Assembly: GCF_000383615.1 (NCBI RefSeq)
Contig: NZ_KB911590.1
Span: forward strand, 62,001 to 126,000
Direction of reading: 5' to 3'
DNA: 64,000 bases
Source of the DNA: Streptomyces canus 299MFChir4.1
GTDB taxonomy: Bacteria > Actinomycetota > Actinomycetes > Streptomycetales > Streptomycetaceae
The translations under genes were made by a program, and so were the position numbers. Each line of letters opens with the position of its first letter. Within the stretch, counting starts at the first letter, position 1. A model generated the notes under the pieces. The model ran no database searches. It worked only from the letters and a program-made list of their open reading frames with translations, and was not told the DNA's origin. Below are positions 7,870 through 64,000 of the stretch, piece by piece.

Positions 7870-8511
7870 ATGGCCGGCGCGATGCGCAAGATGGCGGTCT
7901 ACCTCGGCCTCGTGGAGGACGATGGGTACGACGGCCGCGGTTTCGACCCCGACGACGACTTCGAACCGGAACTCGACCCGGAGCCAGAGCGGGACCGTCG
8001 ACGGCATGAGCCGTCTCATCAGTCACATCAGGCACTTCAGCCTGAAAGGGATGAATCGGTCAGAGTGGTGCAGCCCTCGGTACAGCGCGACCCGGTGCCC
8101 CGATCCTCTTCGCTCGCCGCGGAATCGGTGCGTCCGGCGCGCATCGCGCCCGTGGCATCCATCACACAAGAGCGCGCAAGCCTGGAGAAGAACGCACCGG
8201 TGATCATGCCCAAGGTCGTGTCGGAACGAGAGCCTTACCGGATCACCACACTTCACCCCCGGACCTACAACGAGGCCCGTACCATCGGGGAACACTTCCG
8301 TGAGGGCACCCCGGTGATCATGAATCTGACTGAGATGGATGACACAGACGCCAAGCGACTTGTCGACTTTGCGGCCGGTTTGGTGTTTGGTCTTCACGGC
8401 AGCATCGAGCGGGTGACGCAGAAGGTGTTCCTGTTGTCGCCTGCTAACGTCGATGTCACGGCGGAGGACAAGGCCCGCATCGCAGAGGGCGGGTTCTTCA
8501 ACCAGAGCTGA
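7870..8511 (+). CDS. sepF: SepF, FtsZ membrane anchor
   Basis: A 213-residue SepF protein. It has an N-terminal [17 protein letters not shown] amphipathic segment for membrane binding, an acidic and variable linker, and a C-terminal globular domain at about 110-205. That domain contains [35 protein letters not shown] and [13 protein letters not shown], which mediate polymerisation and FtsZ-tail binding. In actinobacteria lacking FtsA, SepF is the main Z-ring anchor. ATG 7870 is chosen because GGAGG at 7856-7860 precedes it and the amphipathic helix starts there, although the frame is open further upstream. Confidence 0.95.
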
Positions 8512-8562
8512 GAAGCAACAACCGGAACGAAGCACGGAACAGGGGAGAGGGAAAGACAGTCC

Positions 8563-8853
8563 ATGAGCGTGTTCGCACAGGTGATCTACATCGCGCTGAT
8601 GGTGTTCCTCATCGTGCTCATCTTCCGGTTGGTCATGGACTACGTCTTCCAGTTCGCCCGCTCATGGCAACCCGGCAAGGCGATGGTGGTCGTTCTGGAG
8701 GCCACCTACACTGTCACCGATCCACCGTTGAAGCTTCTGCGGCGGTTCATCCCGCCGCTGCGTCTCGGGGGCGTGGCGCTCGACCTGTCCTTCTTCGTGC
8801 TGATGATCATCGTCTACATCCTCATCTCCATCACGGGAAACCTGTCGAGGTGA
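8563..8853 (+). CDS. ylmG: YggT family membrane protein (YlmG)
   Basis: A small membrane protein of 96 residues with two predicted membrane helices, residues about 4-26 and 66-88. They flank a conserved YggT-family segment, TYTVTDPPLKLLRRFIPP. Members sit between sepF and divIVA in actinobacteria and firmicutes and are linked to division or membrane organisation; the molecular function is unknown. A GGGGAGAGGGAAAG ribosome-binding region precedes the ATG. Size and location are typical. Confidence 0.9.
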   Translation: MSVFAQVIYIALMVFLIVLIFRLVMDYVFQFARSWQPGKAMVVVLEATYTVTDPPLKLLRRFIPPLRLGGVALDLSFFVLMIIVYILISITGNLSR

Positions 8854-8905
8854 CTGTGGACGATACGGTCTTGCCGACTGCCGATGACTACGTTGAGGTG
8901 AAGAG

Positions 8906-10129
8906 ATGCCGTTGACCCCCGAGGACGTGCGGAACAAGCAGTTCACGACCGTCCGCCTCCGAGAAGGCTATGACGAGGACGAGGTCGATGCCTTCCTCGA
9001 CGAGGTCGAAGCCGAACTGACCCGCCTGCTGCGCGAGAACGAGGACCTGCGCGCCAAGCTGGCCGCGGCGACGCGTGCTGCTGCCCAGAACCAGCAGAAC
9101 ATGCGCAAGCCTCCGGAGCAGCAGGACCAGCAGCAAGGTGGCATGCCCGGACAGGGAATGCCGCAGCAGGGCATGCGTGGGCCCGGTCCCGGCGCCCCCG
9201 TGCCGGCCGGCATATCCGGTCCGCCGCAGCAGATGGGCGGCCCCATGGGTGGCCCGCCCCAGCTGCCGAGCGGTGCCCCGCAGCTGCCCGCCGGTCCCGG
9301 CGGTGGCCAGGGCGGCCCGCAGGGTCCCGGTCCGATGGGCCAGGGGCCCATGGGTCAGGGCCCGATGGGCCAAGGCCCGATGGGTCAGGGCCAGATGGGT
9401 CAGGGCCAGATGGGTCAGGGTCCGATGGGCCAGGGCACCATGGGCGGTCAGCCGCCCATGCAGCAGCAGATGGGTGGCCCGATGGGCGGCCCCATGGGCG
9501 GTCCGATGGGCGGCCCCGGTCAGGGCCCCGGTGGCGACAGTGCCGCCCGAGTCCTCTCGCTCGCCCAGCAGACCGCCGACCAGGCGATCGCGGAGGCCCG
9601 TTCCGAGGCCAACAAGATCGTCGGCGAGGCGCGTTCGCGTGCCGAGGGTCTCGAGCGTGACGCCCGTGCCAAGGCCGACGCCCTGGAGCGGGACGCGCAG
9701 GAGAAGCACCGCGTCGCGATGGGCTCCCTGGAGTCCGCCCGCGCCACGCTGGAGCGCAAGGTCGAGGACCTGCGCGGCTTCGAGCGCGAGTACCGCACGC
9801 GTCTGAAGTCGTACCTCGAGTCCCAGCTGCGTCAGCTGGAGACCCAGGCCGACGACTCGCTGGCTCCGCCGCGTACCCCGGCGACCGCGTCGCTGCCGCC
9901 GTCCCCGGCGCCGTCGATGGCTCCGGCCGGTGCGAGCGCGCCGTCGTACGGTGGCAACCAGGGCATGGGCGGCGGTCCTTCGGCGGCCGGCCCGTCCTAC
10001 GGTGGCCAGCAGCAGATGTCGCCCGCGATGACCCAGCCGATGGCGCCGGTGCGGCCGCAGGGTCCCGGCCCGATGGGGCAGGCTCCCTCGCCCATGCGTG
10101 GCTTCCTCATCGACGAGGACGACAACTGA
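8906..10129 (+). CDS. divIVA: DivIVA polar growth determinant
   Basis: Essential tip-organising coiled-coil protein (Wag31 family). In Streptomyces it marks hyphal tips and new branches and recruits the polar growth machinery. The 407-residue protein has the N-terminal lipid-binding DivIVA domain ([13 protein letters not shown] through ENEDLRAKL), then a long linker rich in Gly, Met, Pro and Gln at about 60-210. A second coiled coil with alternating charged residues covers about 215-315, and a disordered tail ends in GFLIDEDDN. Seven consecutive 15-base MGQGx repeats occupy 9335-9439, followed by MGGP repeats. It is the last gene of the division cluster and is closed by a strong terminator. 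Confidence 0.96.
9335..9439 (+). repeat. Seven tandem 15-bp repeats inside divIVA
   Basis: Seven adjacent copies of a 15-base unit starting ATGGGYCARGG encode MGQGP/Q/T. Several copies are nearly identical at base level, so unit number may vary by slippage without shifting the frame. A run of 12-base MGGP units follows shortly after. Confidence 0.85.
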
Positions 10130-55455: not shown

Positions 55456-55521
55456 TGTTATGGACCCGTTGCCGGGCCGCCTGCCGTGGGCCCGGCCCGG
55501 CAGGGTAGCGTCGACCCTGCC

Positions 55522-56472
55522 ATGGAACTTGCCTACATTCCCAGCCCGTCGCGCGGGGTGATCCACCTCGGTCCCATCCCGCTGCGTGGCTATGCGTTCT
55601 GCATCATCATCGGCGTCTTCGTTGCCGTCTGGCTCGGCAACAAGCGCTGGATCGCCCGGGGCGGGCGGGCCGGCACGGTGGCCGACATCGCGGTCTGGGC
55701 CGTGCCGTTCGGACTGCTCGGCGGCCGCCTCTACCACGTGATCACGGACTACGAGCTGTACTTCAGCGAGGGCCGTGACTGGGTGGACGCCTTCAAGGTC
55801 TGGGAGGGCGGCCTCGGCATCTGGGGCGCGATCGCGCTCGGTGCGGTGGGCGCCTGGATCGGCTGCCGCCGCCGGGGCATCCCGCTGCCGGCCTACGCCG
55901 ACGCCATCGCCCCCGGTATCGCCCTCGCGCAGGCCATCGGACGCTGGGGCAACTGGTTCAACCAGGAGCTGTACGGCAAGCCGACCGACCTGCCGTGGGC
56001 CCTGCACATCACGTCCTCCACGGACGGCCGGGTACCGGGCTACTACCACCCGACCTTCCTCTACGAGTCGCTGTGGTGCATCGGTGTCGCGCTCCTCGTC
56101 ATCTGGGCCGACCGCCGCTTCACGCTCGGACACGGACGGGCGTTCGCGCTGTACGTCGCCGCGTACTGCACGGGGCGCGGCTGGATCGAGTACATGCGCA
56201 TCGATGACGCCCACCACATCCTCGGACTCCGGCTCAACGTCTGGACCGCGATCATCGTGTTCCTGCTCGCGGTGACATACATCGTGGTGTCGGCGGACAA
56301 GCGACCCGGACGCGAGGAAACCGTCGAGCCTGGTGCCACCGACGACGAGACCGAGTCCGGCCGCGAGACCGAGCCCGGGGACGCTGCCGAGAGCGACGAG
56401 AAGACCGGGCCCGCCGCCGAGACCGACACCGCCGAGGTGTCCGACGAGGCCGGGTCGGCGAAGAAGACCTGA
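55522..56472 (+). CDS. lgt: Phosphatidylglycerol--prolipoprotein diacylglyceryl transferase
   Basis: A 316-residue membrane enzyme that lipidates the lipobox cysteine of prolipoproteins, acting before LspA (encoded at 15663). It has seven helices. The Lgt signature is GRWGNWFNQELYG at about residues 137-149, preceded by the conserved GGLGIWGAIALG. The later YEYMRID-like segment reads WIEYMRIDD. A C-terminal acidic, disordered tail of about 60 residues (TDDETESGRETEPGD) follows the last helix and is typical of streptomycetes. ATG 55522 is the natural start; the frame is open for 36 bases upstream. Confidence 0.96.
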   Translation: MELAYIPSPSRGVIHLGPIPLRGYAFCIIIGVFVAVWLGNKRWIARGGRAGTVADIAVWAVPFGLLGGRLYHVITDYELYFSEGRDWVDAFKVWEGGLGIWGAIALGAVGAWIGCRRRGIPLPAYADAIAPGIALAQAIGRWGNWFNQELYGKPTDLPWALHITSSTDGRVPGYYHPTFLYESLWCIGVALLVIWADRRFTLGHGRAFALYVAAYCTGRGWIEYMRIDDAHHILGLRLNVWTAIIVFLLAVTYIVVSADKRPGREETVEPGATDDETESGRETEPGDAAESDEKTGPAAETDTAEVSDEAGSAKKT

Positions 56473-56529: not shown

Positions 56530-57363
56530 TCAGGCGCGCTCGGCGAGGGAGAGGGTCCGGTGCGCCTGGGTCACCACCGCCGCGTCGATGAACGTACCGT
56601 CCGCGAGGGCCTGGGCTCCCTGGTGGGCCTCCGCCGCCTTGAGGATCGTTTCCGCCTGCTCGATCTCCTCCGCCGTGGGGAGGAACGCGCGCTCGATCAC
56701 CGGGAGTTGGCGGGGATGGACGGCTGCCCGGCCCAGGAAGCCCAGAGCACGGCCATGGGCGCAGGACGTCCGCAGGCCCTCCAGGTCCCGGGTGTCGGGG
56801 TGGACCGACTGGGACGGGGGAGGAAGCGCCGCCGCTCGCGCCGCCACGACCACCCGGGAGCGGGACCAGTCCAGGCCCCGGTCGTGTCGGACGCCCAGGT
56901 CGGCGCGTAGGTCGGCCTCGCCGAGGGCGATGCCCCGCAGACTCGGGTGGGCGGTGGCGATGGCGTGGGCACGCTCGATGCCCAGGGCTGATTCCAGGAG
57001 GGCGTACAGGGGTGGGGCGCCGCCTCCTTCGGTCCGGGCCGTCCTCCGCGCGACGCGGGTGATCTGGGCGGGGGAGGTGACCTTGGGCAGGCGGAGACCG
57101 CAGACGCCAGGGAGCGGGGCGAGCGCTGCCAGGTCCGCTGCCGCCAGGGGGCCGTCGAGGGCGTTCACCCGGACGTGGACCGGGACCGGCTGGGGGTCGC
57201 TGAGACGTTCGGCGGTCGCCTCACGGGCGTACCGCTTGCGGTCGGGGGCGACCGCGTCCTCCAGGTCGACGACCACGACGTCGGCGCCGGCCACGAGGGC
57301 CTTGGTGACGGTCTCCGGGCGGTCGCCGGGGACGTAGAGCCAGGTCAGAGGGTACGGCCTCAC
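56530..57363 (-). CDS. HpcH/HpaI aldolase / citrate lyase beta-like protein (CitE family)
   Basis: A 277-residue TIM barrel. Motifs are LTWLYVPGDRPETVTKALVAGADVVVVDLEDAVAPDRK near the N-terminus, the Mg-binding glutamate in ALLESALGIERAHAIA, and the aspartate in GIALGEADLRADLG. Members cleave or form CoA thioesters such as malyl- or citramalyl-CoA, and stand-alone CitE-like proteins lack the CitDF partners. The GTG start overlaps the stop of the CoA-transferase gene by four bases, so the pair may act on one CoA thioester. It is the last gene of the operon. Confidence 0.88.
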   Translation of the reverse strand: MRPYPLTWLYVPGDRPETVTKALVAGADVVVVDLEDAVAPDRKRYAREATAERLSDPQPVPVHVRVNALDGPLAAADLAALAPLPGVCGLRLPKVTSPAQITRVARRTARTEGGGAPPLYALLESALGIERAHAIATAHPSLRGIALGEADLRADLGVRHDRGLDWSRSRVVVAARAAALPPPSQSVHPDTRDLEGLRTSCAHGRALGFLGRAAVHPRQLPVIERAFLPTAEEIEQAETILKAAEAHQGAQALADGTFIDAAVVTQAHRTLSLAERA

Positions 57364-58550
57364 AGGGCGCCCTCCGTGCGCAGGGCCGTCAACTCGGCCT
57401 CGGTCAGGCCCAGTTCCCGCAGGATCTCGTCCGTGTCCGCACCGTGCGGGCGGCCCGCCCAGCGGATCGCGCCCGGCGTCGAGGAGAGCCGGAAGAGGAC
57501 GTTCTGCATGCGCAGGGGGCCGAGGTCCGGGTCGTCGACGGTGGTGACGGTGTCGAGCGCCTGGTACTGCGGGTCGGCCAGCACGTCCCGGACGTCCTGG
57601 ATCGGGGCGACCGCCGCCTCCGCCTTCTCGAAGGCCGCGAGGACGTCGGCGCGGCTGCGTCGGGCGATCCAGGAGCCGACCGCCGCGTCGAGGACGTCGG
57701 CGTGGGCGGCCCGCTCGGCGCCCGTCGCGAACCACGGTTCGTCGATCAGCTCCGGGCGCCCCACCAGGTGCATCACGCGTTCCGCGATCGACTGGGCCGA
57801 GGTGGAGACGGCGACCCAGGTCCCGTCGGCCGTGCGGTAGGTGTTGCGCGGGGCGTTGTTGGCGGAGCGGTTGCCGGTGCGCTCCTGGACGTGACCGAGT
57901 TGGTCGTACCAGGTCGGCTGGGGGCCGAGGACCGTCAGGATCGGCTCGATGAGCGCCATGTCGACGACCTGGCCCTCGCCCGTGCGGTCCCGGGCCGCGA
58001 GCGCCGTCATCACCGCGTACGCCGTGGCCAGGCCCGCGATCGAGTCGGCCAGGCCGAAGGGCGGCAGGACCGGGGGCGCGTCGGGTTCGCCGGTGATCGC
58101 CGCGAAGCCGCTCATCGCCTCGGCGAGGGTGCCGAAGCCGGGGCGGTGGGCGTAGGGGCCGAACTGGCCGAAGCCGGTGACGCGGGTGAGGACCAGGCGG
58201 GGGTTGACGGCGGACAGCTCGGACCAGCCGAGGTCCCACTTCTCCAGGGTGCCGGGGCGGAAGTTCTCGACGACCACGTCCGCTGAGGCGGCCAGCCTGA
58301 GGAAGGTGGTCCGGCCGCCCGGCTTGGACAGGTCCAGGGTGATCGTGCGCTTGTTGCGGCCCAGGACCTTCCACCACAGGCCGATGCCGTCCTTCGAGGG
58401 GCCGTGGCCGCGGGAGGGGTCCGGTTTCGTGGGGTGCTCGATCTTGACGACCTCCGCGCCGAAGTCGCCGAGCAGGGTGGCGGCGAGAGGGCCGGCGAAG
58501 AGGGTGGCCGTGTCGAGCACGCGCAGGCCTTGGAGGGGGGTCTCGGTCAT
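57360..58550 (-). CDS. CaiB/BaiF family (class III) CoA-transferase
   Basis: A 396-residue family III CoA-transferase. It has RVLDTATLFAGPLAATLLGDFGAEVVKIEHP at the N-terminus, GRNKRTITLDL and DVVVENFRPGTLEKW. The catalytic aspartate is expected in GLADSIAGLATAYAVMTALAARDRTGEGQVVDMALIE. The family moves CoA between carboxylic acids; the substrate is not visible. The ATG overlaps the ribokinase stop, and the stop overlaps the CitE-like start, so it is firmly in the operon. Confidence 0.9.
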   Translation of the reverse strand: MTETPLQGLRVLDTATLFAGPLAATLLGDFGAEVVKIEHPTKPDPSRGHGPSKDGIGLWWKVLGRNKRTITLDLSKPGGRTTFLRLAASADVVVENFRPGTLEKWDLGWSELSAVNPRLVLTRVTGFGQFGPYAHRPGFGTLAEAMSGFAAITGEPDAPPVLPPFGLADSIAGLATAYAVMTALAARDRTGEGQVVDMALIEPILTVLGPQPTWYDQLGHVQERTGNRSANNAPRNTYRTADGTWVAVSTSAQSIAERVMHLVGRPELIDEPWFATGAERAAHADVLDAAVGSWIARRSRADVLAAFEKAEAAVAPIQDVRDVLADPQYQALDTVTTVDDPDLGPLRMQNVLFRLSSTPGAIRWAGRPHGADTDEILRELGLTEAELTALRTEGAL

Positions 58551-59440
58551 GACGGGTACCGGGCCTCGATCTCGGAGCGGTAGGGCATGGACGCCGAGGC
58601 GCCTTCCCGCTGGACGGACAGCGCGGCCGCCGCGGCGGCCCAGGTCATGGCCTCACGCATCGGCCGTTCCTCACCGAGGGCGACGGCGAGCGCGCCCACG
58701 AAGGTGTCGCCCGCCCCCGTGGAGTCCACCGCGGTGACCCGCGGGGCGGGGACGGCGAGGGGTTCGGCGTCCCGGGTCAGATACAGGCTGCCGGCCGCGC
58801 CCAGGGTGATCACCACGCGCGGGACCCGGTCGAGGAGGGCGGCACCAGCGGCGAACGGGTCGGCGAGGCCGGTGAGAGTGGCCGCCTCGTGCTCGTTGGG
58901 GACCAACAGGTCGGTGGCGTCGAGGAGTTCGGGCGGCAGGTCCTGGACCGGGGCGGGGGTGAGGATCGTACGGACACCGTGGGCGCGGGCCGTCTGCGCG
59001 CCCGCGAGGACCGCTGCCAGGGGGATCTCCAACTGGAGGAGCAGGGCGTCGGCGGAGGCGATCAGGCCCTCGTCGCCGGGGACGAGGTGGTCGACGGTGC
59101 CGTTCGCGCCGGGGATGACGACGATGGCGTTGCCGCCCTCGTCGTCCACGACGATGTGCGCGGTGCCGGAAGGGCCCTCGACGGTGCGCAGGTGGTCGGT
59201 GGTGACGCCGGAGTGTTCCAGGGTGGAGCGCAGCCGGGTGCCGAAGCCGTCGTTGCCGACCGCGCCGATGATCGAGACGGTGGCGCCGGAGCGGGCCGCG
59301 GCGACGGCCTGGTTGGCGCCCTTGCCGCCGGGGATCGTGCGGAACTCCCTGCCGGTGACGGTCTCTCCGCGCCGGGGTGCCTTGTCGACGTAGACGACCA
59401 GGTCCATGTTCGTGCTGCCGAGCACGGCGATGTGGGTCAT
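58547..59440 (-). CDS. rbsK: Ribokinase (PfkB family)
   Basis: A 297-residue sugar kinase. PfkB signature 1 is REFRTIPGGKGANQAVAAARSG at about 32-53, and signature 2 with the catalytic aspartate is VDSTGAGDTFVGALAVAL. GSTNMDLVVYVDKAPRRGET is the typical ribokinase opening. It would make ribose 5-phosphate from ribose. The stop overlaps the CoA-transferase start (ATGA). The start overlaps the stop of the last ADP-ribosylglycohydrolase, which suggests the hydrolases feed it with ribose; that link is inferred. No ribose ABC transporter is adjacent in the window. Confidence 0.92.
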   Translation of the reverse strand: MTHIAVLGSTNMDLVVYVDKAPRRGETVTGREFRTIPGGKGANQAVAAARSGATVSIIGAVGNDGFGTRLRSTLEHSGVTTDHLRTVEGPSGTAHIVVDDEGGNAIVVIPGANGTVDHLVPGDEGLIASADALLLQLEIPLAAVLAGAQTARAHGVRTILTPAPVQDLPPELLDATDLLVPNEHEAATLTGLADPFAAGAALLDRVPRVVITLGAAGSLYLTRDAEPLAVPAPRVTAVDSTGAGDTFVGALAVALGEERPMREAMTWAAAAAALSVQREGASASMPYRSEIEARYPS

Positions 59441-60795
59441 GGGCGAGCAGTCTCCCGGTGGGTGAGGTGGGCCAGGGTGTCGAAGCCCGTGCCGTTGAAG
59501 TCGGCGACGGAGGTGGCCAGGCGGTTCTTCAGGGGGGTGGTCCAGCGGTCGGGGAGGTTTTCCGGGGCGCCGCAGCGGAGGCCGGCGATGCTTCCCGCTG
59601 TCGCGCCGTTGGAGTCGGTGTCCCAGCCGCCGCTGACCGCCTTGCAGAGGGAACCGGTGAAGTCGCCGTTCGCGTGGGTGAGGGCGGCGGCGATCAGCGC
59701 GGTGTTGGGGACGGCGTGGACCCAGTGGTGGGTCGCGCCGTGGGTGGCGTGGAGTTCGTCCACGACCGTGTCGAAGTCGTCGTGTGTCTCGGCCAGTTGG
59801 ACGGCGTGGGTGATGGCCCTGGTGAGGCGGGAGTTCGGGGGGATCACGCTGAGGCCGGTGCGCAGGCAGGTGTGGATGTCGGGGGTCGCCGCCGCCTGGG
59901 CGATCACGGCGGCCGTGAACATCGCCGCGTAGACGCCGTTCGCCGTGTGGGTGAGGGTGGCGTCCCGGTGGGCCTGTTCGGCTGCGGCCGCGGGGTCGCC
60001 GGGGTTGGTCCAGCCGTGGACGTCCGCGCGGATCAGGGCACCGATCCACTCGCGGAAGGGGTTGCGGTGGCGGGCCGTTCGGGGAGGCTCCAGGCCCTGG
60101 AGGAGGTTGCGGTAGGCGATGCGTTCGGCGGTGAAGGTGCGGCCGGCGGGGAGTTCGTCGAGCCAGAGCTTCGCCACGTCCGTGGTGGTGAAGTGCTTGC
60201 CGTGGCGCTGGAGCAACAGGAGGTTCAGCAAGGGGTAGTTGAGGTCGTCGTCCTCGGGCATGCCGTCGATGTTCTCGGCGAGGGAGGTCGCCGCGGAGCG
60301 GCGGTTCCAGGGATGGGCGGCGAGGAGTTCGGCGGGGACGCCCTTGGCCGTGAAGTAGGTGTTCAGGGGCCAGTTGCCGGTGGATCGGGCGAGTGCGCGG
60401 ATGGCTTCGAGGGGGAGTTTCTCCACGGGTTTGCCCAGGAGGCAGCCCACGGCCCGGCCCAGCCAGGCCGCCTCCAGGCGGGCCTCGGTGAGGGGGGCCG
60501 TGGCGGTGGGCGCCGGCCATGCACGGCAGCGGGCCTTGATCCTCGCGAGGTCGGTGGGTTCGTCTTCCGCCCACGCGCTCGGTAGATCCGCGAGTTCGTC
60601 CAGCAGGTCCTCCGCGAGCTGCCGCAGATACCGGGACGTGGGCTCCGCCGAGGCGCCCGCTCGGGTCGGCGCCTGTCCGCCTCCGGCCGCTCGCCATCGC
60701 GCCGCGATCGCCGACGGCTCCCTGCCGTCCTGGGCCGCCTGGCGGAGCTCGTGGCCGATCAGGTCCTCCGGTTGCACCCAGGTCAGTCGGAGCAT
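59437..60795 (-). CDS. ADP-ribosylglycohydrolase family protein, copy 1 (long form)
   Basis: A 452-residue member with an N-terminal extension of about 130 residues (MLRLTWVQPEDLIGHELRQA onward) before the hydrolase domain. That domain opens LEAAWLGRAVGCLLGKPVEKLP. The first metal motif reads MPEDDDLNYPLLN instead of the usual TDDT. The second is intact, GGWDTDSNGATAGSIAGL. The family removes ADP-ribose or hydrolyses related N- and O-glycosidic bonds using two magnesium ions. The start overlaps the stop of copy 2 by 13 bases, and the stop overlaps the ribokinase start. The partial divergence in motif 1 suggests an altered substrate. Confidence 0.87.
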   Translation of the reverse strand: MLRLTWVQPEDLIGHELRQAAQDGREPSAIAARWRAAGGGQAPTRAGASAEPTSRYLRQLAEDLLDELADLPSAWAEDEPTDLARIKARCRAWPAPTATAPLTEARLEAAWLGRAVGCLLGKPVEKLPLEAIRALARSTGNWPLNTYFTAKGVPAELLAAHPWNRRSAATSLAENIDGMPEDDDLNYPLLNLLLLQRHGKHFTTTDVAKLWLDELPAGRTFTAERIAYRNLLQGLEPPRTARHRNPFREWIGALIRADVHGWTNPGDPAAAAEQAHRDATLTHTANGVYAAMFTAAVIAQAAATPDIHTCLRTGLSVIPPNSRLTRAITHAVQLAETHDDFDTVVDELHATHGATHHWVHAVPNTALIAAALTHANGDFTGSLCKAVSGGWDTDSNGATAGSIAGLRCGAPENLPDRWTTPLKNRLATSVADFNGTGFDTLAHLTHRETARP

Positions 60796-61949
60796 CTCGG
60801 GCCTCCGAGTTCCGCGAAGGCCGCCTCGTGGGCCCTGCGGCGGGCCACGTTCTTCTCGAAGATGTCCCGGGTCACGGCGGTCAGCGTCGTCGCCGGTTCC
60901 CACAGGTCCAGACGGCTCGCCTCCGAGACCGTTTTCGACCAGTCGTCCGGGACCGGGAAGCCCATTGCGCCCGACAGGGCGCCCGCCATCGTGGCGATCG
61001 AGTCGCAGTCCCTGCCGTAGTTCACCGCGCCGAGAACGGCCTGCCGGTAGTCGCCCCCGGCCACCACCAACATCCCGAGCGCGACGGGAAGTTCCTCGAT
61101 CGCGTGGAGGCGGGAGGGGCGGCGTGCGCCGAGGGAGGGGGCGCGGTAGTCGGGGCCGACCGTGTCGTAGGGAGCCACGGCGTCCCGCAGGGGTCGTAGG
61201 GCCGACTCGAAGTCCGTGTGGCGGGCGGCCACTTCGCAGACCTGCTCGATCGCCGTACGGGTGCCGTCCTTCGCCAGCGACAGACAGGCCGTCACCACGG
61301 AGTCCGGTGTCGCTCCCGGTGCGGCCGCCGCCGCCACCGCCGCCGCGAAGACTCCCGCCGCCTCCCGGCCGTACGACGACTGGTGGGCGCCCGCGATGTC
61401 CAGGGCCTCGGCGTAGGCGGCCCGCGGGTCGGCCGCGTTGACCAGGCCGACCGGGGCCATGTACATCGCCGCGCCACAGTTGACGATGTTGCCCACTCCT
61501 GCCTCGCGGGGGTCGATGTGGCCGTAGTGGAGGCGTGTGACCAGCCACTTCTCCGCGAGGAAGATGCGGTGCAGGGGGAGGGCCTCCGCCTCCAGTTCCG
61601 GGATCCAGCGCGGGTTCGTCATCAGGTCGGGGACCAGGTGGTCGGCGATCGCGTAGGCGTCGAGATGGTCTTTGACCCGGTCGTAGACGCGGATCAGCGC
61701 GTGGGTCATCAAGGTGTCGTCGGTGACGTGGCCGTCGCCCTTGTGGTACGGGGCGATGGGGCGGGCGGTGCGCCAGGCGTCGCCGTTCCAGGGGCCGACG
61801 ATGCCGTGGACGCGGCCTGCGTGGCGTTCGAGGATCTGGTCGGGGGAGTAGCCCTCGACGGGGCCGCCGAGGGCGTCGCCCACCGCCGCGCCCACGAGGG
61901 CTCCGGCGATCCGGTCCTCAAGGCTGCTTTCTGTGTTTTTGGGCGTCAT
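60783..61949 (-). CDS. ADP-ribosylglycohydrolase family protein, copy 2
   Basis: A 388-residue protein with the standard layout. The N-terminal RIAGALVGAAVGDALGGPVEG is followed by the first metal motif GHVTDDTLMTHALIR and NCGAAMYMAPVG. The second metal motif is NYGRDCDSIATMAGALSGA. All canonical acidic residues are visible, so it should be catalytically competent. The ATG at 61949 is 12 bases after a GGAGG; an in-frame ATG at 61961 abuts that site and is less likely. It starts 9 bases after the copy 3 stop. Confidence 0.9.
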   Translation of the reverse strand: MTPKNTESSLEDRIAGALVGAAVGDALGGPVEGYSPDQILERHAGRVHGIVGPWNGDAWRTARPIAPYHKGDGHVTDDTLMTHALIRVYDRVKDHLDAYAIADHLVPDLMTNPRWIPELEAEALPLHRIFLAEKWLVTRLHYGHIDPREAGVGNIVNCGAAMYMAPVGLVNAADPRAAYAEALDIAGAHQSSYGREAAGVFAAAVAAAAAPGATPDSVVTACLSLAKDGTRTAIEQVCEVAARHTDFESALRPLRDAVAPYDTVGPDYRAPSLGARRPSRLHAIEELPVALGMLVVAGGDYRQAVLGAVNYGRDCDSIATMAGALSGAMGFPVPDDWSKTVSEASRLDLWEPATTLTAVTRDIFEKNVARRRAHEAAFAELGGPRCSD

Positions 61950-61957
61950 GCCCGGAA

Positions 61958-63199
61958 TCATCCTCCTGGGAGAGGCGGTTGTGCGGCTTCCAGGAGTTCG
62001 GCGAGTTCCACGAGGTCCGTGCCGGTGAGACGGGGGAGGGCGCAGCCGGAGAGGGTGCGGCAGGTGTCCCGCCAGGTGGCGGGGATCGCGCCGGCCCCGC
62101 CGAGTGCGCCGGTCAGGGCACCCACCAGGGCCGGGGCCGAGTCGGCGACCCGGGAGAGACAGGCTGCCGCGGGGATCGCCTCGGCGATGCGGCCCTGCGC
62201 CGCGGTGGCCAGGGCGAGGGCCACGGGGACGGTTTCGGCGGCCGCGATGCCGTAGCTGTAGACGTGGTCGACGATCTCGTGTTCCAGGGCGGGGATCAGG
62301 GCGAAGGCGGGGCCGGCGGTCCGGGCCAGGTACAGGGCGTGACGGGCGTTGCGGCCGATCTCCGTCTCCTCGGGGAGTTCGGTGAGGGCGGCTGTCACAC
62401 AGGCTTCGACGGGGGCGCCGGTCAGCGCCAGGGAGACGGCCGAGGCCATCGCCCTCGCTCCGTGCACCCCGTCTCCGTCCTGGGTGTAACGGGCGTCGAA
62501 CTCGGCGAGGTCCGCGGCGAGTCGGGGGTCGCCGGGGTGGGAGACGGCGAGGACGCAGGCCCTGACGCAGGCCGCGTCGTCGAAGTAGTGGGGGTTGTCG
62601 TGGCCGGTGGCGGGTGGGCGCAGGCCGGTGGCGAGGTTGCCCAGTCCCGCTCTCACGGAGATGCGGGCGCGGAGGGGGAGGACGGCGGACTCGATCTCGG
62701 GGGCGCGGTCCGCCGCGGCGGCCACTTCGGCGGCGAGGGCGTTCCACGCGAGGTCGATGGCGGCTCTCGTACGGCGGTGTCGCGTCCGGTCGCCCAGGGC
62801 GGTGTCGTCGCCTGCCCTGAGGAGGGCCTCCGCGGTGAAGGCCGCCCATTCGGCGTCGTCGGAGGGGCCGAGGCGGAGGGGTTCGGGGGGTTGGTTCAGG
62901 GCGATGGGGACGGGGAGGGTGGTGGTGGCGTTCTGTTCGGCGAAGGTGTCCAGTTCGCGGGTGAGGCGGCGGGTCCACTCGGGCATGCGGGCGGCTCTGT
63001 GGCGGGCCGCGGGCCAGCCGGCGGCGTCGCCTGCGGCCAGGCCCAGGAGGAGGCCGGTGACCCTTTGACCGGCCTCGGCTTCGCCTTCGGCCCTTGTGTT
63101 CCCCCCCGCACTACCTGTGCACCTTTCGTCGTCGGGTGCCGGTGGCCCCCCTGGGGCGATTTCGCCGTCGGCGGCCGCGGGTTCGAGCGGCCTTTGCAT
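61958..63199 (-). CDS. ADP-ribosylglycohydrolase family protein, copy 3 (degenerate metal site)
   Basis: A 413-residue paralogue with an N-terminal region of about 45 residues before VTGLLLGLAAGDAAGWPAARH. The first acidic motif reads LGPSDDAEWAAFTAEALL. At the second site, where family members have DxD(S/T), it reads SRVADSAPALVGALTGALGG, so the first aspartate is replaced. Magnesium binding may therefore be impaired and the protein may be a non-catalytic partner or bind a different ligand. The ATG at 63199 lacks a strong ribosome-binding site; an internal start near the conserved GLLLG is possible. It is 35 bases downstream of copy 4. Confidence 0.82.
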   Translation of the reverse strand: MQRPLEPAAADGEIAPGGPPAPDDERCTGSAGGNTRAEGEAEAGQRVTGLLLGLAAGDAAGWPAARHRAARMPEWTRRLTRELDTFAEQNATTTLPVPIALNQPPEPLRLGPSDDAEWAAFTAEALLRAGDDTALGDRTRHRRTRAAIDLAWNALAAEVAAAADRAPEIESAVLPLRARISVRAGLGNLATGLRPPATGHDNPHYFDDAACVRACVLAVSHPGDPRLAADLAEFDARYTQDGDGVHGARAMASAVSLALTGAPVEACVTAALTELPEETEIGRNARHALYLARTAGPAFALIPALEHEIVDHVYSYGIAAAETVPVALALATAAQGRIAEAIPAAACLSRVADSAPALVGALTGALGGAGAIPATWRDTCRTLSGCALPRLTGTDLVELAELLEAAQPPLPGG

Positions 63200-63234
63200 G
63201 CCCGACGTGGTCTCGCCCCACGGCCCCGGCGGCC

Positions 63235-64000
63235 TCACCGGTCCGTCCCCGAGTCGGTGCCCGCCGCCAGGGTGAAGGCGTCCGGGGCGGGTGGGGGCCA
63301 CTCCTGGGCGAGACCGGTCGTGCCCCACTTGCCGTCCTCGCCCGCCACCAGCAACTCCGCCACGTCCAGCACGTGATGGCCCGCCATGGAGGGCAGGCAG
63401 CTGCCTCTCGCCGGGCCGATCGCCGCGGCCCACTCGGCCGGGATCGCCGAGACGCCCCTGGTCGCCCCGGCCAGCGCCCCCGCCACCGCCGCCGTCGTGT
63501 CCGCGTCTCTCCCCATGTTCACCGCGGTCAGGACCGCCTCGCGGAAGTCGCCGTCCGCCGCCGCGTACGCGCCGAAGGCCAGGGCCACCGCCTCCGGGGC
63601 CAGGTCGGTCCACGGATAGCCGCCGATGACGACGGCGGAGCGGACCGCGCGCTCGCCTCTGTGGGCCACTGCCACGGCGCGGCGCAGGGAGCGGGCCGTC
63701 CAGCTGTCGTCCGGGATCACCGCCAGCGCCGAGGCGACGACGGTGATCGTCGGGGCACCGGCCATCGCCGCGGCCACTCCCGCGGCGACCGCCTGGCCGC
63801 CGTAGATGCCCTCGCCGTCGTGGCTCACCGAACCGTCGACGGCCACCAGGCGGGCCGCCTCTGCGGGGCGGCCCGCCGCGAAGACGCCGAAGGGAGCCGC
63901 CCGCATGGCCAGGCCGTCGCTCCAGGCGTGGCGGTGCTGGGCCGAGATGGGGGCGGCAAGGCCGCGGCGGAGGTTCTCCAGCGTGCCGCGTTCGCTGAAG
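63235..64000 (-). CDS. ADP-ribosylglycohydrolase family protein, copy 4 (partial)
   Basis: The frame is open from the window edge to the stop at 63235 and gives 254 residues of the C-terminal part. It opens with ERGTLENLRRGLAAPISAQHRHAWSDGLAMRAAPFGVFAAGRP and later has the intact second metal motif NMGRDADTTAAVAGALAGATRG. SHDGEGIYGGQAVAAGVAAAMAG is also typical. The N-terminus and the first metal motif lie outside the window. It is upstream in the operon of copies 3, 2 and 1, and further genes may precede it. Confidence 0.87.
   Translation of the reverse strand, partial: FSERGTLENLRRGLAAPISAQHRHAWSDGLAMRAAPFGVFAAGRPAEAARLVAVDGSVSHDGEGIYGGQAVAAGVAAAMAGAPTITVVASALAVIPDDSWTARSLRRAVAVAHRGERAVRSAVVIGGYPWTDLAPEAVALAFGAYAAADGDFREAVLTAVNMGRDADTTAAVAGALAGATRGVSAIPAEWAAAIGPARGSCLPSMAGHHVLDVAELLVAGEDGKWGTTGLAQEWPPPAPDAFTLAAGTDSGTDR

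Follow-up and report, generated by a model that had tools for sequence, protein, structure and literature searches.

The nearest known system to the one described here is the yegTUV operon of Escherichia coli (regulator GgaR/YegW), in which genes for a protein of the ADP-ribosylglycohydrolase (ARH) family (yegU) and a sugar kinase (yegV) adjoin a transporter gene (yegT). Passages of PMC10819704 present yegT, yegU and yegV as genes without a clear function and link the operon to ADP-glucose and glycogen. A stretch of 64,000 nucleotides from the 10.5 Mb genome of Streptomyces canus 299MFChir4.1 (G000:C9:62001-126000), hereafter referred to as the window, carries a row of four ARH genes followed by genes for a ribokinase, a CaiB-type CoA-transferase and a CitE-like lyase. 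The yegTUV operon resembles this row and its relatives in joining ARH, sugar kinase and transporter genes, and differs from them in having a single ARH gene, a single predicted nucleoside symporter gene, a GntR regulator and no acid module. We read the row as a catabolic operon hitherto undescribed within the open-licence literature, where none of the titles and abstract openings listed by our searches describes this gene set. The case that it serves the catabolism of an imported conjugate, in which a hydroxy acid of the citramalate type is joined to a pentose (most likely ribose), is, in our estimate, evenly balanced.

Three further systems share parts of this arrangement. Citramalate degradation, whether through a CoA-transferase and a citramalyl-CoA lyase or through citramalate lyase (CmlA/CmlB; PDB 9erq, 9evf), draws on the CaiB and CitE families and on proteins like the AtuA and DUF4387 proteins of the Firmicutes operons described below, whereas the present operons add a sugar importer and ARH hydrolases. 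LacI-controlled CUT1 sugar operons likewise contain LacI, two permeases, an SBP_bac_1 protein, hydrolases and a kinase, but here ARH-fold proteins replace the usual glycoside hydrolases and an acid module is added. The ARH fold cleaves bonds to the C1 of ribose. The ADP-ribosylhydrolases DraG and ARH3 belong to the same family, and their metal motifs recur in the proteins that we call ARH1 and ARH3 of the window; the window ARHs nevertheless score far below the DraG cut-off, and their genomic setting looks catabolic.

A seven-gene unit conserved in Streptomyces

The operon consists of seven minus-strand open reading frames (ORFs) spanning positions 56530-64332, the last of which extends past the end of the window at 64000. 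ARH1, an ARH-fold hydrolase, occupies 63235-64332 (63235-64000 in the window; 8235-9332 of the extended locus L011) and starts with ATG. It is followed by ARH2, a paralogue with an altered metal site (61958-63238, GTG start), by ARH3, a paralogue kept across phyla and the candidate core hydrolase (60783-61961), and by ARH4, the counterpart of the ARHb of other phyla (59437-60795). Downstream of these lie a ribokinase of the PfkB family (58547-59440; TIGR02152, 318 bits), a family III (CaiB-type) CoA-transferase that we propose to act on citramalate (57360-58550; PF02515 (CoA_transf_3), 416 bits) and a CitE-like C-C lyase, the proposed citramalyl-CoA lyase (56530-57363; PF03328 (HpcH_HpaI), 124 bits). 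ARH1 to ARH4 all exceed the ADP_ribosyl_GH (PF03747) cut-off of 26.2 bits (204, 123, 164 and 184 bits, respectively), and over the aligned part they are divergent (34% for ARH2 against ARH1, 29% for ARH2 against ARH4). The whole genome holds ten ADP_ribosyl_GH matches, nine of them above the cut-off, and since four of these nine lie inside 4.7 kb here, they are very unlikely to have come together by chance. Neighbouring genes overlap by 4 to 13 bases when the longer starts are used; an alternative ATG start of ARH2 at 63199 leaves a 35-base gap to ARH1.

Sixty-one genomes of the genus, including that of the window strain, were searched for ARH2, ARH3, CaiB and CitE. All four genes were found in 40 genomes, none in 16 and some in 5, with ARH2 orthologues (at least 69% identity) in 41. 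The partial genomes are G001 (ARH2 and ARH3, at a contig end), G010 (ARH3 and CaiB), G017 (a CitE fragment), and G032 and G046 (CaiB and CitE), and in the last four assembly gaps may be part of the cause. Gene order was tallied, here and in all groups below, on loci with 6 kb or more to either side of ARH3 (full flanks), which set aside 3 of 41 same-genus, 3 of 21 other actinobacterial (one of them without ARH3), 12 of 49 alphaproteobacterial-type, 0 of 3 betaproteobacterial and 4 of 33 Firmicutes loci. ARH1, ARH4, CaiB and CitE surround ARH2-ARH3 in the same order in 37 of the 38 full-flank same-genus loci, and 32 of the 38 include the ribokinase. The exception is G012 (L032, L161 and L162, from a single main contig), where the operon is split over four places: ARH2-ARH3 at 8.84 Mb, ARH4 and the kinase at ~8.88 Mb, ARH1 beside its VIT-family neighbour at 7.16 Mb, and CaiB-CitE at 4.05 Mb.

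An earlier note on this stretch had described seven linked minus-strand genes, with four divergent tandem ARHs followed by ribokinase, CaiB and CitE and with overlaps or gaps of at most 35 bases. The ORFs and Pfam matches bear this out, the 35-base gap being that of the ATG start of ARH2. The note had also taken the genes for an operon and pointed to the conservation of the whole set across Streptomyces as a check. Given the order ARH1-2-3-4-(ribokinase)-CaiB-CitE in 37 of 38 loci and the joint presence of the four searched genes in 40 of 61 genomes, they very probably are one unit. The case that the note had named as contrary, genes occurring separately in related genomes, is clear in G012 only, and there all seven genes survive.

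Importer-linked forms in other actinobacteria

With ARH2 as the query, 296 genomes of the class yielded relatives in two further families (25 genomes); 20 of these 25 loci, together with one Nonomuraea locus, formed a comparison set of 21 from outside the genus. In the full form of the operon, genes for LacI, two permeases and an extracellular binding protein stand before ARH1 on the same strand. Pfam and NCBIfam assign the set in L065 to CUT1-type permeases, an SBP_bac_1 protein and a LacI-family regulator whose best scores are RbsR/CcpA-like and fall below every cut-off. All 18 full-flank loci of the two families and Nonomuraea contain LacI, permeases and binding protein, 17 of the 18 contain CaiB and CitE, and all 18 contain the ribokinase.

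In the window strain the unit is limited downstream by the convergent lgt gene, which lies outside it (55486-56472, plus strand; PF01790, 220 bits), and upstream by a divergent VIT1-family gene, followed by gltB. In the neighbourhood past 64000, neither a transporter nor a regulator lies immediately upstream of ARH1. Within the genus, LacI, permeases and binding protein accompany 4 of the 38 full-flank loci, and in one of these, L047, they occupy the window's own VIT-lgt site, between VIT and ARH1. This placement suggests that the window strain most likely lost importer and LacI at that site, the alternative being a gain in L047. The transporter or regulator that the earlier note had looked to upstream is thus missing there from the window strain itself and present in relatives, in L047 at the same site.

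The window genome also contains a related, unlinked importer (L163) of two permeases and a binding protein, the latter 61% identical to that of L047. Of the 41 genomes that have the cluster, 30 hold a first permease of this type (at least 69% identity), which is present as an unlinked copy in 27 and solely as the linked copy in 3. Of the 20 genomes that lack the cluster, 10 hold such a permease, so this importer type is only loosely tied to the cluster. The genes in L163 (9727-15042; G000:C6) lie near a UDPGT-type glycosyltransferase gene, with no LacI, ATPase or hydrolase beside them, and similar permease and binding-protein sets in L164 and L165 have neighbours that resemble those of L163 by eye (Pfam was run on L163 only). 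In one cluster-free genome, G023, where a search found no ARH2, ARH3, CaiB or CitE orthologue, a permease gene (G023:C1:6183635-6184561) encodes a protein that shares 81% identity with the first one of the linked importer.

The stretch that separates ARH1 from the VIT1-family gene (L011 9333-9617, just past 64332) contains a palindrome with one mismatch, CCAAAGCTAACTTTGG, and a second element, GCTAACCTGC, both kept in many of 15 aligned genomes. We considered the palindrome as an operator of the operon and rejected it: the two elements resemble iron boxes, and the palindrome reads like an iron box for the VIT gene.

A shared core in other phyla

The gene set is broader in distribution than is visible from the window alone. 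Comparison of ARH3 with plasmid records by tblastn revealed rhizobial relatives at ~44%. Ensifer sp. PDNC004 and Sinorhizobium sp. B11 carry the row LacI, permease, permease, binding protein, ARH3, ARHb, ATPase, CoA-transferase and CoA ester lyase, and Pseudochrobactrum has LacI, an importer with ATPase, and ARH3 alone. The Ensifer proteins are 43% (ARH3), 45% (CaiB) and 30% (CitE) identical to those of the window. A scan with one genome per species, which took the best 80 of 579 relatives as ranked against an alphaproteobacterial sequence and is not a census, yielded Alphaproteobacteria, Burkholderiaceae, Paenibacillus and other Bacilli, Clostridia and one planctomycete metagenome-assembled genome, the last counted as alpha type and among those set aside for their flanks. 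The tallies rest on tblastn, and loci of lower G+C were called as longest ORFs, so that single ORF lists may err.

Among the 37 full-flank alpha-type loci, 37 contain an importer with LacI, 36 ARHb, 28 CaiB and CitE, 5 CaiB alone and 1 a kinase. The 29 full-flank loci of Firmicutes and Clostridia comprise an importer in 29, ARHb in 29, AtuA with DUF4387 in 28 and ribokinase in 26, and CaiB in none. All three betaproteobacterial loci consist of LacI, ARH3 and an MFS transporter, with a kinase in one and no acid module; the transporter of one of them (L120) exceeds the gluP (glucose/galactose) cut-off. The surroundings of ARH3 were compared in 145 blocks, among which no unlabelled family was shared by more than 8 loci. 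Inspection of the recurring unlabelled genes by eye recognised no Nudix, ADP-ribosyltransferase or nucleotidase among them (singletons were not identified), and likewise no mesaconase or hydratase.

A maximum-likelihood tree built from 63 ARH proteins joins ARH3 to the ARHa of Proteobacteria and Firmicutes in one clade (100/100) and ARH4 to ARHb and one other ARH of the window genome in a second (100/100); it pairs ARH2 with ARH1 as its sister at lower support (93/81). On the strength of these two clades, the common core would be the importer, ARH3 and ARH4/ARHb, with ARH1 and ARH2 as mostly actinobacterial additions. E. coli YegU and four further ARHs of the window genome lie outside the clades of ARH1 to ARH4, on long branches whose placement is unsure and whose joins may be false.

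Two proteins of these operons carry additional domains. The ARHb of proteobacteria (L073 13223-15322 and relatives), at ~700 residues, has an additional C-terminal half that resembles a LamG-type beta sandwich by eye; this part of the Ensifer protein matched nothing in Pfam at E 1e-8, and no PDB entry matched it convincingly. A protein of ~650 residues that ends in an FGE-sulfatase domain (Pfam, L057) and begins with a barrel weakly resembling amylases occurs in L055-L061, L063, L064, L068, L069, L099 and L100, as an operon member in one actinobacterial family and behind the operon in two alphaproteobacteria. Its structural model, which is of low confidence (pLDDT 63.8), matched the FGE domain and, with low TM-scores, amylase-type barrels, and indicated no sugar.

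Predicted functions of the hydrolases, kinase and acid module

What we take to be the ARH metal site, TDDx ... DxD[TS], is kept in ARH1, with GTDDTE and GRD(A/S)DT motifs in 59 of 59 orthologues. ARH3 retains TDDT and both metal motifs in all 58 actinobacterial rows with letters there; outside the actinobacteria, TDDT is present in 86 of 86 rows and the final Asp of the second motif in 85 of 86. The Asp pairs of ARH4 are kept in 57 of 57 sequences, with Glu replacing the motif's first Thr in 56 of them. ARH2 departs from this site: V, L or T replaces the leading Asp of its C-terminal DxD in all 53 orthologues (53 of 53), and DDAE and ADS are kept. This looks like a fixed change rather than decay, and ARH2 may be a partner subunit or an enzyme with other chemistry. 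Against the DraG equivalog (TIGR02662, cut-off 337), ARH1, ARH3 and ARH4 score 78.6, 39.5 and 22 bits and no match is listed for ARH2; against Tri1 (cut-off 490), ARH1 reaches 54.4 bits and ARH3 is also far under.

The kinase points to ribose. With 318 bits to the ribokinase equivalog TIGR02152 (cut-off 299.65), it is the sole protein of its genome above that cut-off, the runner-up scoring 288.8, and activity on D-ribose is predicted for it. Of ten kinases tested from other operons, seven also exceed the cut-off, one of them narrowly (299.9). The linked importer, too, belongs to a sugar type. Loci that lack the kinase could be served by a general ribokinase elsewhere in the genome.

Evidence on the acid comes mainly from the Firmicutes operons, whose acid module pairs a DUF4387 protein with AtuA, a family formerly called DUF1446. 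The AtuA profile matches 'Citramalate lyase, subunit A' of PDB 9erq/9evf with 561 bits, and an AtuA model aligns to 9evf_A with a Z-score of 44.7, at 3.7 Å over 449 residues and 47% identity (Foldseek E 9.8e-58). The DUF4387 protein of L134 matches citramalate lyase subunit B (9erq_B) with 88 bits, and the title of entry 9evf reads 'Citramalate lyase - ADP - pyruvate complex'. This close full-length relation to CmlA/CmlB holds for the Firmicutes operons only, not for the window. Members of the CaiB and CitE families serve to activate and cleave citramalate, and the two modules that replace each other, CaiB with CitE and AtuA with DUF4387, thus both come from enzyme groups able to cleave it. 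Since the Firmicutes pair matches CmlA/CmlB, the acid is probably citramalate. Passages of PMC4682846 describe a CoA route for citramalate through a CoA-transferase and a citramalyl-CoA lyase, and a DUF1446 gene downstream of methylaspartate ammonia-lyase in a setting where the fate of citramalate is given as unclear. The AtuA of terpene breakdown appears in a passage of PMC4847356 as an acetate-releasing lyase, among enzymes characterised or tentatively identified.

In the actinobacterial module, Asp169 of CaiB, presumably the catalytic residue, is present in 57 of 57 orthologues. Scores to the named CaiB equivalogs of NCBIfam (succinate-glutarate, mesaconate, formyl-CoA and carnitine) stay below their cut-offs, the best being 248 against 750. 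The best NCBIfam match of CitE is the RipC/Ccl citramalyl-CoA lyase (NF038242; 159 bits, cut-off 375), and despite its score below the cut-off CitE may work as a citramalyl-CoA lyase. Against citrate lyase beta (TIGR01588; cut-off 443.4) it scores 146.5 bits.

The history of this module seems to differ from that of the hydrolases. In a CaiB tree, the actinobacterial operon copies group with non-operon paralogues, apart from the alphaproteobacterial operon copies (100/100), and a CitE tree points in the same direction at lower support (94/94); both trees hold a small sample of paralogues. Because CaiB falls into separate groups though ARH3 forms one clade, the trees suggest that the acid module was recruited separately to the same task in actinobacteria and alphaproteobacteria. 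Non-operon CaiB paralogues of the genus lie beside cyclase-family and MmgE/PrpD genes (L166 8358-12694, L167 and L168; Pfam for L166, by eye for the other two), in L166 also adjoining a CitE paralogue, and these neighbourhoods perhaps represent another dicarboxylic acid pathway.

A proposed pathway and its alternatives

From the gene set, its order and conservation, the protein families, their motifs and the match to CmlA/CmlB we infer a joint pathway together with its sugar, acid, bond and substrate, the last being a ribosyl or similar conjugate of citramalate. In the full form of the operon, a LacI-controlled CUT1 ABC importer would bring in a conjugate of pentose and a citramalate-type acid, whose glycosidic bond or bonds would be hydrolysed through the metal site of ARH3 and ARH4/ARHb, in actinobacteria also by ARH1 and ARH2. 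The ribokinase would convert the freed ribose to ribose-5-phosphate, CaiB would move CoA onto the freed citramalate, and the CitE-like lyase would split citramalyl-CoA into pyruvate and acetyl-CoA; in Firmicutes, citramalate lyase (CmlA/CmlB) would take over this last part. For ribose plus citramalate as the products we see about as much to support the idea as to oppose it, and we are less confident of the exact conjugate. A wider proposal, which we think somewhat likelier to fail than to hold, is that these ARH-fold proteins are a class of catabolic glycosidases, and that several phyla take up through a dedicated ABC system, and live on, a widespread but unrecognised conjugate of citramalate with ribose or a similar pentose. 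Under this proposal the operon would have gained its acid part more than once, through citramalate-cleaving enzymes of differing chemistry.

The pathway idea of the earlier note was partly right. One unit, ribose as the likely product (in line with a kinase above the ribokinase cut-off) and an acid moiety handled by CoA-transferase and lyase all agree with our results, and the Firmicutes match to CmlA/CmlB narrows the acid to the citramalate type. The salvage routes that it had also proposed, for ADP-ribose and for nucleosides, are taken up below.

Several points weigh against the pathway as proposed. The substrate is a guess, the roles of the ARHs are predicted from sequence, and we know of no common natural ribosyl-citramalate. 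In the actinobacteria citramalate specificity is argued by analogy, because CitE and CaiB score below all specific cut-offs. Other beta-hydroxy acids such as malate are possible substrates there, and the CitE of Ensifer is just 30% identical to that of the window. The division between CaiB with CitE and AtuA with DUF4387 tracks the phyla and so represents few independent events, and the CaiB tree could also reflect duplication out of the operon. The acid module is missing from 4 of 37 alpha-type, 3 of 3 beta and 1 of 29 Firmicutes loci, and the kinase from 36 of the 37 alpha-type and from 6 same-genus loci. The gluP-type MFS transporter of the beta loci gives a hint of a substrate that is neutral and resembles a sugar. 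The first permease of the importer type is also found in 10 of 20 cluster-free genomes, and one actinobacterial locus (L071) has distant forms of ARH1, ARH2 and the importer, with CaiB-CitE some kilobases off and with ARH3, ARH4 and the kinase missing.

Some of these points fit a sugar other than ribose. The ARHs would then cleave a different glycoside of a citramalate-type acid, such as a hexoside or another pentofuranoside, with the kinase acting on a different sugar or as an accessory. The near absence of the kinase from alpha-type loci and the gluP-type transporter of the beta loci agree with this, as does the FGE-domain protein with its weakly amylase-like barrel, which accompanies 11 of 18 other actinobacterial and 2 of 37 alpha-type loci. 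We consider it unlikely, since the window kinase and seven of ten others pass the D-ribokinase equivalog cut-off and since a general ribokinase could stand in where the kinase is missing.

Nucleoside or riboside salvage in the manner of yegTUV, with the ARHs freeing ribose from N-ribosides, the kinase phosphorylating it and CaiB and CitE acting on a non-citramalate or base-derived acid, can draw on the adjacency of yegU and yegV to yegT, whose product is given in a passage of PMC10819704 as a predicted nucleoside symporter, and on the ribokinase score. Yet the importer belongs to the CUT1 sugar type, YegU stands apart from ARH1 to ARH4 in the tree (with the uncertainty of placement mentioned above), and the citramalate-type acid modules of actinobacteria, alphaproteobacteria and Firmicutes go unexplained. 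We therefore regard this route as unlikely; a nucleoside, as in the earlier note, may be the substrate but would not account for the acid modules.

The scarcity of linked importers in the genus, with LacI, permeases and binding protein in just 4 of 38 loci, would also be expected if the window set were a partial remnant, or if it acted on an intracellular substrate with importer and regulator off-site. This is decidedly unlikely, and a remnant is disfavoured, in view of the seven open frames with their conserved motifs, the unlinked importer whose binding protein is 61% identical to that of L047, and the retention of all seven genes in G012 even though they are dispersed to four places.

Reversal of ADP-ribosylation or turnover of ADP-ribose, in which the ARHs would de-ribosylate proteins or nucleic acids and the ribokinase would salvage the ribose, has PF03747 membership and the metal motifs of ARH1 and ARH3 in its favour and is nonetheless highly improbable, as was the ADP-ribose salvage of the earlier note, because ARH1 and ARH3 fall far below the DraG and Tri1 cut-offs, relatives link the genes to a sugar importer and LacI, the recurring unlabelled genes of the 145 blocks (singletons not identified) included no ADP-ribosyltransferase, Nudix or nucleotidase recognisable by eye, and the window genome offers a contrast in a separate ARH4-like gene beside Nudix and sirtuin genes. 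That lone ARH gene (L160 6416-8853; G000:C6, ~293.4-295.9 kb) lies on the same strand as the adjoining NUDIX and SIR2 (sirtuin) genes, and its setting, unlike that of the operon, suggests ADP-ribose or NAD metabolism.

If the proposed catabolism of a pentose-citramalate conjugate is correct, it predicts a metabolite containing pentose and citramalate that is, to our knowledge, undescribed. ARH-fold proteins, named for their ADP-ribosylated targets, would gain a catabolic role in many soil bacteria, and this would call for caution in reading each bacterial ARH gene as a sign of ADP-ribosylation signalling.

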